From Terriglobales bacterium (GTDB taxonomy: Bacteria > Acidobacteriota > Terriglobia > Terriglobales > Acidobacteriaceae): a DNA stretch of 40,780 nt. Position numbers and translations under genes: made by a program. The stretch is taken from contig DATIGQ010000208.1 of the NCBI GenBank assembly GCA_035454605.1, positions 1 through 40,780 of the forward strand, written 5' to 3'. The notes under the pieces are model-generated. The model was given only the letters and a program-made list of their open reading frames with translations. It was not told where the DNA came from and did no database searches. Below are positions 2,528-5,677 of this stretch, piece after piece; the first letter of the stretch is position 1; every line of letters begins with the position of its first letter.

Positions 2528-2547
2528 CCTCCTTTGCACGCGAAAGG
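2528..2547 (-). promoter_or_regulatory. Shine-Dalgarno site with a sequestering hairpin (riboswitch expression platform)
   Basis: In the transcript, CCTTT (2547-2543) can pair with AAAGG (2535-2531) around a 7-nt loop. AAAGG overlaps the AGGAGG ribosome site (2533-2528) of the receptor gene. The loop side also contains TTCGCG (2544-2539), which can instead pair with the 3' strand of riboswitch helix P1. This arrangement predicts translational control by ligand. Confidence 0.6.
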
Positions 2548-2563
2548 GGTTGATGGTGGCGGC

Positions 2564-2747
2564 TTCGCGCCGGTCTCCTGGCTTTGCGAGTCCGGATGCC
2601 GGGATCGGCACCCGTTCCTGCAGCCGGCCTTCCCATGGATTGAATCTCCACAGTGGCACGGCTGCGACAGCACTCGCTTACAGTTGCGCGGCAGCGCGGG
2701 ATTCTCACCCGCTTCCCAGTCCCCGCCCAGCGGCGGGGACGCGCGAA
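2564..2747 (-). ncRNA. Cobalamin riboswitch aptamer
   Basis: Read on the minus strand, the region contains the cobalamin aptamer landmarks in order: GGGAAGCGGGTGAGAATCCC, then GCTGCCGCGCAACTGTAAGC, then GCCACTGTG, then GGGAAGGCCGGC, then the B12-box-like GCCAGGAGACCGGC (2582-2569). The closing helix P1 is formed by TTCGCGC (2747-2741) and GCGCGAA (2570-2564). It lies in the 302-bp gene-free stretch between the acyltransferase and the TonB receptor, and its promoter is at 2800-2828. In this family, adenosyl- or methyl-cobalamin binding usually shuts off the downstream transporter gene. Confidence 0.95.
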
Positions 2748-3547: not shown

Positions 3548-4782
3548 CGCCACACTTCCGCCAACGTTGGCCGCTTGCCGTACATCAGGATGCCGATGCG
3601 GTAGATACGCGCGCACAACCCCAGCAGCCCCCAGGTGGTGCCGGTCAGCAACCCAAGGCACAGGATGATCTGCCATGCCGGAGGCATCTCCACCAGGATG
3701 CGCACGTACATCAGCAGCGGCGCGAAGAAAGGCACCATGGAGAGCCAGATGGAAGCCGTCGCGTCCGGCCGCCGGATGACGAAGAACACCAGAATGATCG
3801 AGACCAGCAGCGGCAGCATCACCAGGGTCTGCAACTGGTAGGCTTCCTGCTCGGAATTGGTGATGGCCGCCAGCACCGCCCATAGCCCGGCGTACAGCAG
3901 GTATCCCAGCACGAAGAAGACGGGAAAGAAGAGCAGAGTGCTGAGAGGAAGTTGCAGGCCGATGTCCTTCCACTTGGCCATGGCGGGAATCAGCACGGCG
4001 ACCCCCATCAGCGCCCAGATACCCATCTGCGTCATGCCTACCAACCCCACGCCCAGGATCTTGCCGGCCATCAACTGGCGGGAAGAAACGGAAGAAAGAA
4101 GCACTTCGACGATGCGAGACGCTTTCTCCTCCAGCACGGAGCGCATCAGAATGACGCCGTACATCAGCACCACGCCATAGAGCGAGGTCACCAGCAGCAC
4201 GGTCATGACCACCATGCTGCGGCCGCTCCAGCGCCGCTCCGTTCCCTGCTCCACCCGCACCGTCTGCAGATCGAATGGCCGCAGCAGTTCCTGCATATTG
4301 ACGTTGGCAGCGCCATGCCGGCGGAGCTCTTCGCGCATCATGGCCACCTGCAGGGCGACACGCAGGCCGCCCCACTCCATGAAGTCGCCTACGCCGCGCG
4401 AGCTGTAGAGCACTTTGCGTTCGGCCAAAGCGTCGTCGGTCGCCCACAGGTAGCCATCGATGGCGCCTGCGGCAACCTGGGCGCGCAGCGATTCCCGCTC
4501 CGCGTCCGTCGCATGGGTGCTGACGCGCACCTGGAACTTCACCGCCGTGGGGTTGCTCTCATCGACTTCGGTGAGCTGCTGCCGCAGCATCTCGCCGAAC
4601 TCTGCCCGCGACGCCACGACCACGATGCTGCGCCGCACCTCCAGGCGGTAGCTGGCCAGGCGCGCGGGAATCACCAGCAGCACCGAAATCAGCAGGGGCA
4701 TGAGCAGGGTAGTGAACCAGAAGGCGCGGGTGAACACCCATGCCCGGTACTCCCGCTTCAGGATGAGCCATACGTTACGCAT
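3529..4782 (-). CDS. ABC-2 type transporter permease (NatB-like)
   Basis: The protein is about 417 aa. A first membrane segment (roughly 17-40) is followed by a long extracytoplasmic domain (about 45-175) and a cluster of five further membrane segments in the C-terminal half, the ABC-2/NatB exporter layout. The motif MRSVLEEKASRIVEVLLSS, typical of this family, precedes the second membrane segment. With the ATPase encoded upstream it should form an efflux system; the substrate is unknown. The ATG at 4782 overlaps the ATPase stop codon by 8 nt. A TTG at 4797 is also possible, but the Shine-Dalgarno-like GGAGGT touches it directly. Confidence 0.88.
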   Translation of the reverse strand: MRNVWLILKREYRAWVFTRAFWFTTLLMPLLISVLLVIPARLASYRLEVRRSIVVVASRAEFGEMLRQQLTEVDESNPTAVKFQVRVSTHATDAERESLRAQVAAGAIDGYLWATDDALAERKVLYSSRGVGDFMEWGGLRVALQVAMMREELRRHGAANVNMQELLRPFDLQTVRVEQGTERRWSGRSMVVMTVLLVTSLYGVVLMYGVILMRSVLEEKASRIVEVLLSSVSSRQLMAGKILGVGLVGMTQMGIWALMGVAVLIPAMAKWKDIGLQLPLSTLLFFPVFFVLGYLLYAGLWAVLAAITNSEQEAYQLQTLVMLPLLVSIILVFFVIRRPDATASIWLSMVPFFAPLLMYVRILVEMPPAWQIILCLGLLTGTTWGLLGLCARIYRIGILMYGKRPTLAEVWRWTKYA

Positions 4783-5677
4783 CGGCCTTGGCCACAACCT
4801 CCAGGAAGATCTGCTCCAGCGAGGGTTCCACCAGCTCGAAACGGCTCACGCGGCAGGTGGCCGCTACCAGCTTCAGGAATTCGTGTGCGTCGGCGCCCGC
4901 TTTCAGCCGCACTTCGGCGTAATTGCCGTAGTCGTTGAAGGATTCCACTATGCCGTTGCCGGTCAGGAAGGCGGCCGCGCCCTCGTAGCTCACGTGCACC
5001 ATGTTCCGCCCGTAGCCTGCCTTGATGCGCTTGAGGTCGCCCTGCAGCACGGCATGTCCGCGGTGCAACAGACAGATGGTGTCGCAGAGACGCTCGATCT
5101 GCTCCATGCGGTGGGTGGAAAACAGCACGGTGCGACCGGCGTTTTTCAGCTCCACCAGCACATCCTTCAACATGGCGGTGTTCACGGGATCCATGCCCGC
5201 GAAGGGCTCATCCAGGATGACGAACTCCGGGTCGTGGAGCAACGCCGCCACGAACTGCACCTTCTGCTGCATGCCTTTGGAGAGTTCTTCGACCTTGCGT
5301 GGCAGCCAGTCGGCAATGTCCAGCCGTTCGCACCATTGCCGCGCCCGGCGTTCCGCTTCGCTGCCCGCCATTCCCTTGATTTCGCCCAGGAACCGCAGCT
5401 GGTCGAGCACCTTCATGCGCTTGTAAAGGCCGCGCTCCTCCGGCAGGTATCCGATGCGCCGCAGGTGCTGGCGCTGGAAGGGTTCGCCGAACAGCCGAAC
5501 CTCGCCCGCATCCGGCACCAGGATGCCCAGGATCATGCGCAGCGTGGTGGTCTTGCCGGCGCCGTTCGGGCCCAAAAGTCCGAAAATGGTCCCCGGCGAG
5601 ATGGCAAACGAGAGGCTGTCCACTGCCACAAAGTGGTCGTAAGCCTTGCGGACACGGTCCAGGACGACGGTGGCCAT
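4775..5677 (-). CDS. ABC transporter ATP-binding protein (NatA-like)
   Basis: The protein is 300 aa. It has Walker A GPNGAGKTT (36-44), Q-loop region YLPEERGLY (78-85), signature LSKGM (132-136), Walker B FVILDEP (152-158) and switch histidine H189. The C-terminal 80 residues form the extra domain found in NatA-type export ATPases (DUF4162-like), including EPSLEQIFLEVV. It would power the ABC-2 permease encoded immediately downstream, with which it overlaps by 8 nt. It is the second gene after the PilZ protein, separated by 119 bp that contain dispersed repeat units. Confidence 0.92.
   Translation of the reverse strand: MATVVLDRVRKAYDHFVAVDSLSFAISPGTIFGLLGPNGAGKTTTLRMILGILVPDAGEVRLFGEPFQRQHLRRIGYLPEERGLYKRMKVLDQLRFLGEIKGMAGSEAERRARQWCERLDIADWLPRKVEELSKGMQQKVQFVAALLHDPEFVILDEPFAGMDPVNTAMLKDVLVELKNAGRTVLFSTHRMEQIERLCDTICLLHRGHAVLQGDLKRIKAGYGRNMVHVSYEGAAAFLTGNGIVESFNDYGNYAEVRLKAGADAHEFLKLVAATCRVSRFELVEPSLEQIFLEVVAKADA

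Follow-up and report, generated by a model that had tools for sequence, protein, structure and literature searches.

The window, namely the whole 40,780-nucleotide stretch of Terriglobales DNA analyzed here, carries near its beginning, on the minus strand, a gene for a TonB-dependent receptor that starts at position 2522 and is preceded by a leader containing a cobalamin riboswitch aptamer. Listed in the order in which they would be transcribed, the features of this region are:

2828-2800, minus strand: sigma-70-like promoter of the leader (TTGACA-N17-TACAGT), upstream of the aptamer
2761-2551, minus strand: cobalamin riboswitch aptamer, RF00174 (Rfam match, 89.4 bits)
2747-2741, minus strand: 5' strand of P1, TTCGCGC (from sequence; covaries with 2570-2564)
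2691-2687, minus strand: loop L5, CCGCG, which is proposed to kiss L13 (CGCG conservation; covariation with L13 under a post hoc rule)
2570-2564, minus strand: 3' strand of P1, GCGCGAA (from sequence; P1 covariation)
2549-2543, minus strand: 5' arm of P13, CCCCTTT, anti-Shine-Dalgarno (from sequence and pair counts; the CCTTT of the earlier, sequence-only reading is 2547-2543)
2544-2539, minus strand: TTCGCG segment of the sequence-only reading (from sequence)
2542-2536, minus strand: L13 loop CGCGTGC, of which CGCG (2542-2539) and G2537 can pair with L5, with U2538 bulged
2535-2528, minus strand: 3' arm of P13, AAAGGAGG, including the ribosome site AGGAGG at 2533-2528 (from sequence and pair counts)
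2535-2531, minus strand: AAAGG segment of the sequence-only reading (from sequence)
2522-288, minus strand: TonB-dependent receptor of 744 residues, nearest to BtuB (Pfam PF00593/PF07715, NCBIfam and PDB matches)

The top NCBIfam family for the receptor was TIGR01779 (TonB-B12), with a score of 192.5 bits. As the cut-off of that family (599.7) is not reached, the protein is termed only BtuB-like here. The top PDB matches were to E. coli BtuB (E 1.6e-29). The earlier suggestion that B12 or another corrinoid is the likely ligand of the receptor is supported. Given that five B12-binding domains above cut-off and one periplasmic binding protein of PF01497, the family that includes BtuF, were found in the genome, it is plausible that the source organism uses and takes up corrinoids. 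In a second genome of the same genus (L037), sequences encoding three EutN/CcmL-type vertex proteins and a BMC shell protein, oriented towards the receptor gene, lie just beyond that gene (positions 4041-5230). A bacterial microcompartment locus hence adjoins the B12-controlled receptor in that genome, while the contig of the window stops short of this point.

The presence of a cobalamin riboswitch, first proposed from the letters of the window, was confirmed with the Rfam covariance model. RF00174 was matched over its full length (1-189) with 89.4 bits, as compared to a cut-off of 31.5 (E 5.5e-21), and no copy other than that at 2761-2551 was found in the 3.29-Mb genome. In addition, each of the segments named in the sequence-only reading was found on the minus strand where that reading had placed it. 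A 271-nt stretch of the leader folded better than each of 200 dinucleotide shuffles (z -3.9), and 119 of 127 orthologous leaders have a TTGAC-type promoter ahead of the aptamer, versus 8 of 2,540 base-shuffled stretches. In agreement with the sequence-only reading, no terminator-like hairpin was found from the aptamer to the start codon. One terminator-like site, in which a GC-rich hairpin, CGGACGCCGTCTGCGTCCG, is followed by CCTGCTCTTT, lies in the interval between promoter and aptamer (2787-2769, minus strand); it may reflect chance, with shuffles containing an average of 0.5 such sites.

Orthologs of the receptor were identified in 132 of 398 genomes of the Acidobacteriaceae, spanning 47 of 79 genera, with the named relatives being Acidobacteria and Terriglobia assemblies. 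Cobalamin riboswitches were detected in 193 of 200 genomes of the family (1-8 copies listed), and no paper on cobalamin riboswitches of the Acidobacteriaceae was found among the open-licence papers searched. Two of the 132 orthologs, whose matches begin inside the gene, were left out, as were three leaders cut by contig ends (L057, L090, and L128) and four duplicates of loci already in the set (L002-L005). The analysis covered 127 non-redundant leaders, with that of the window being counted in. In 126 of these, both the platform and a full, L5-bearing aptamer were readable. L096, which presents a B12 box and a platform, with no recognisable aptamer in the preceding 230 bases, was dropped. The platform sequence, CCCCTTTCGCGTGNAAAGGAGG, is little changed across the leaders. 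Four leaders (L043, L054, L073, and L133) are misaligned in P1, such that counts of P1 pairs refer to 122 leaders without them or to 126 with them. Finally, an alignment of 40 leaders was assembled with one leader for each distinct P1/platform combination among the 122, a choice that gives variable combinations more weight.

According to the sequence-only reading, the 3' strand of P1 changes partners. Without ligand, GCGCGAA would leave P1, pair with UUCGCG(U) at 2544-2538 and so free the ribosome site, while with ligand, P1 would form and P13 would hide that site. In the leader of the window, complementarity for such an exchange is complete (seven pairs, one being G-U), and the two pairings do exclude each other, since CCTTT and TTCGCG overlap by two bases (2544-2543). 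As that reading had required of homologous leaders, TTCGCG and CCTTT proved to be nearly invariant, and judged by this requirement the proposal survives. Of the 122 aligned leaders, 74 allow all seven pairs of the alternative, anti-P1 helix and 103 allow six or more; for P1, the corresponding numbers are 92 and 120. When the four misaligned rows are included, the numbers become 75 and 106 of 126 for the alternative helix and 92 and 120 of 126 for P1.

Covariation, however, distinguished the two helices. Among the 40 representatives, P1 was paired in 92.5% of cells and included 30 doubly changed cells, a value reached by none of 500 shuffles, as expected of a member of RF00174. By contrast, the alternative helix was paired in 83.2% of cells and included no doubly changed cells, with all 500 of 500 shuffles scoring as high, such that the covariation in a second helix expected of a strand-exchange riboswitch was not seen. 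Likewise, permuting the partners among distinct pairs lowered P1 from 6.41 to 5.65 pairs (0 of 2,000 permutations as high), whereas the alternative helix presented 5.70 pairs with its own partners and 5.71 with permuted ones (1,356 of 2,000 as high). When the 3' strand of P1 mutates, the 5' strand follows, while UUCGCG does not. In leaders such as L130, L159, and L164, a change in the 3' strand is matched in the 5' strand, which preserves P1 at the expense of anti-P1. At the G-C pair adjoining the A-U pairs, the alternative pair is impossible in 16 of the 40 representatives, as compared to 4 of 40 in which the P1 pair fails. The P1 change from C-G to U-A (or U-G) was encountered in five genera (L045, L094, L126, L168, and many loci of genus g7), in all of which the L13 C at the corresponding place is kept. 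Selection therefore maintains P1 and CGCG but not pairing between the two, and the strand swap, with no double changes and a score no better than that of shuffles, was rejected as a conserved mechanism. Since its four GCGC-end pairs can still form in 115-122 of 122 leaders, a short form of the alternative helix is conceivable.

Folding energies were also considered. With the transcript ending at 2525, the ensemble in which P1 was forced (-129.2 kcal/mol, ribosome site mostly paired) and that in which anti-P1 was forced (-129.6 kcal/mol, ribosome site partly free) were nearly equal, and the anti-P1 hairpin of the window's leader was calculated at -8.0 kcal/mol, versus -5.6 kcal/mol for P13. The swap is thus predicted to be energetically possible in the source genome. 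Across 122 leaders, however, the anti-P1 hairpin was more stable than P13 in 74 and less stable in 48. Moreover, when the 3' end was placed at 2500 or 2400, such that the transcript runs into the gene, other folds won and anti-P1 was unpopulated; once the coding region is included, the unconstrained fold prefers coding-region pairs. With P1 forced at these longer lengths, the ribosome site was only partly hidden unless P13 was forced as well. P1 did not form in unconstrained folding of the whole leader by models that can score neither a kissing loop nor a ligand. Considered together, these results make it unlikely that exchange of the P1 3' strand operates here, be it alone or along with a kissing loop.

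In the 40 orthologous-gene leaders, P13 (CCCCUUU with AAAGG-A-GG) was paired in 93.2% of cells, with two of its seven pairs having changed on both sides. The conserved hairpin contains AGGAGG, which supports the proposal that CCUUU:AAAGG hides this site, as it would in the ligand-bound fold. The earlier assignment of a translational platform is supported as well. By itself, P13 is calculated at between -8.2 and -2.8 kcal/mol (median, -5.6). In general, ribosomes are able to unfold hairpins of such stability. The arms of P13 differ in L094, L097, and L105, and in L094 another stem covers the ribosome site. In two members of the family without the orthologous receptor (L267 and L275), the hairpin that follows P1, ATTCCGAGGGGAAT, lies directly before the ATG, and the ribosome site seems to be the kissing loop itself, as described for env8; platform designs vary within this single family.

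The loop in GGGTGNNAATCCC was first taken as L5, yet the two bases at its middle are freely variable and mismatch CGCG, such that its pairing with L13 was rejected. Based on the L5 consensus given in the available portion of PMC10653944, L5 was instead assigned to the next loop, CCGCG. This sequence is found in 123 of 126 leaders, with the last four bases reading CGCG in all 126, and L13 starts with CGCG in 125 of 126. In the window's leader, only four contiguous pairs are possible (G2687-C2542, C2688-G2541, G2689-C2540, and C2690-G2539), to which C2691-G2537 can be added across the bulged U2538. Across the 40 leaders, L5 and L13 pair in 98.5% of cells, the complementarity of L5 to the loop of the post-P1 hairpin being what membership in this class entails. 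CGCG is kept in L13 while the 3' strand of P1 varies (GCGTAAA, GCGCATT, GCGCGCT, and GCTCGCA) and is kept in L094, L097, and L105, although the P13 stem is rebuilt there (CCCACTCGCGTGCNCAGGAGG). As such, the invariant CGCG of the platform is better read as L13 pairing with L5, a partner absent from the sequence-only reading, than as the product of a strand swap.

As both loops are almost invariant in the orthologous set, little L5/L13 covariation is found within it. Still, in the three leaders with an L5 starting with A or U, the sixth base of L13 is C and not G, whereas among the 123 leaders with an L5 starting with C, this base is other than G in one. The pattern fits the bulged L5-L13 pairing, which predicts it, with the qualification that two of the three leaders have near-identical platforms and may represent one event. 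Covariation was seen across 108 distinct elements from the family and the phylum (136 minus 21 in which L5 was not placeable and minus seven lost to the CG filter or as duplicates). Here, a rule that allows for a bulge was applied, whereby the loop of the post-P1 hairpin comprises CG, 0-3 bases and then the complement of its own L5. An L13-like loop matching its own L5 was found in 89 of 108 elements, versus a permuted mean of 67 (0 of 5,000 as high); with at most six elements per L5 type, 22-23 of 34 matched, versus about 11 upon permutation (1, 0, and 0 of 5,000 as high in three draws). The rule was formed post hoc, after the test for contiguous pairs had been inspected, a bulge being known for the L5-L13 helix. 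That simpler test, requiring four contiguous pairs, gave a weak signal, with 60 of 113 elements matching, versus 55.4 upon permutation (301 of 3,000 as high); for the mean run, 36 of 3,000 permutations were as high, and with at most six elements per L5 type, 1,295 and 293 of 3,000 were. Extraction of L5 by a loose pattern misplaced many loops.

These findings, namely the aptamer, the covariation of P1, the conserved P13 over the ribosome site and the L5/L13 complementarity with phylum-wide covariation, were obtained from the analysis itself, and the leader is accordingly best described, with good probability, as a cobalamin (corrinoid) riboswitch of the L5-L13 kissing-loop type that represses translation of a BtuB-like receptor. 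The identity of the ligand, the direction of the switch and docking upon ligand binding we infer from the family. Upon ligand binding by the aptamer, L5 (CCGCG, 2691-2687) would dock on L13 (CGCG-U-G, 2542-2537, with one bulged U) and keep P13 (CCCCUUU/AAAGG-A-GG) closed; as the 3' arm of P13 is the ribosome site, translation would stop. Without ligand, the P13 hairpin by itself, at about -5 to -6 kcal/mol, would be weak enough for the ribosome to open. In the source genome, the anti-P1 helix may assist in this opening. It is conceivable, if doubtful, that the self-complementary CGCG serves as a four-base hub, with L13 pairing with L5 (off) or with the 3' strand of P1 (on), so coupling docking to strand exchange. 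Were this so, some genera would have kept the anti-P1 arm and others lost it, a natural series for gauging the contribution of each layer. That CGCG is conserved as a binding site for a protein or small RNA rather than as the partner of L5 is very improbable, for while segment CTTTCGCGTG roughly equals the B12 box in conservation and only 4-5 pairs would make up the kissing helix, L5 is equally invariant, the two loops covary across the phylum (under the post hoc rule), position 6 of L13 tracks position 1 of L5, and the location is that of the known L13.

According to the available portion of PMC10653944, it is unknown how corrinoid riboswitches couple ligand binding to folding of the platform. 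The present set comprises more than 120 natural leaders in which L5, L13 and the ribosome site are constant and P1 is variable, with a subset being without full anti-P1 pairing, such that the kissing-loop and strand-exchange models could be separated in a reporter test. It also illustrates that selection need not maintain a strand swap, however complete that swap may look in a single sequence.

The kind of riboswitch is one already known, with a conserved platform, the P13 stem as ribosome site and L13 as kissing loop. L5-L13 docking is a known link (PMC10653944 and PMC9600662, in the portions available), and a one- or two-base bulge renders the helix ligand-dependent, according to the accessible text of PMC10907184. 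Like strand-exchange riboswitches, the window's leader has a P1 3' strand complementary to the platform; unlike them, the second helix does not covary in relatives. With E. coli btuB, the leader shares the aptamer family, the kind of gene and a post-aptamer hairpin loop in which CGCGT faces an L5 containing CGCG (ACGCG in E. coli, as placed from its sequence, and CCGCG here). The two differ in that the E. coli kissing loop has five pairs, as reported in the portion of PMC10653944 at hand, whereas here four contiguous pairs and one across a bulge are predicted, and in that a separate helix, P14, controls the E. coli ribosome site, according to the available part of PMC11162775, while here that site is the 3' arm of P13. 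Finally, env8HyCbl likewise has its ribosome site directly on P13 and a bulged L5-L13 helix, going by the available parts of PMC10907184 and PMC10653944. In the former account, however, that site lies in the terminal loop of P13, whereas here it lies in the stem, with the loop holding the kissing bases only.
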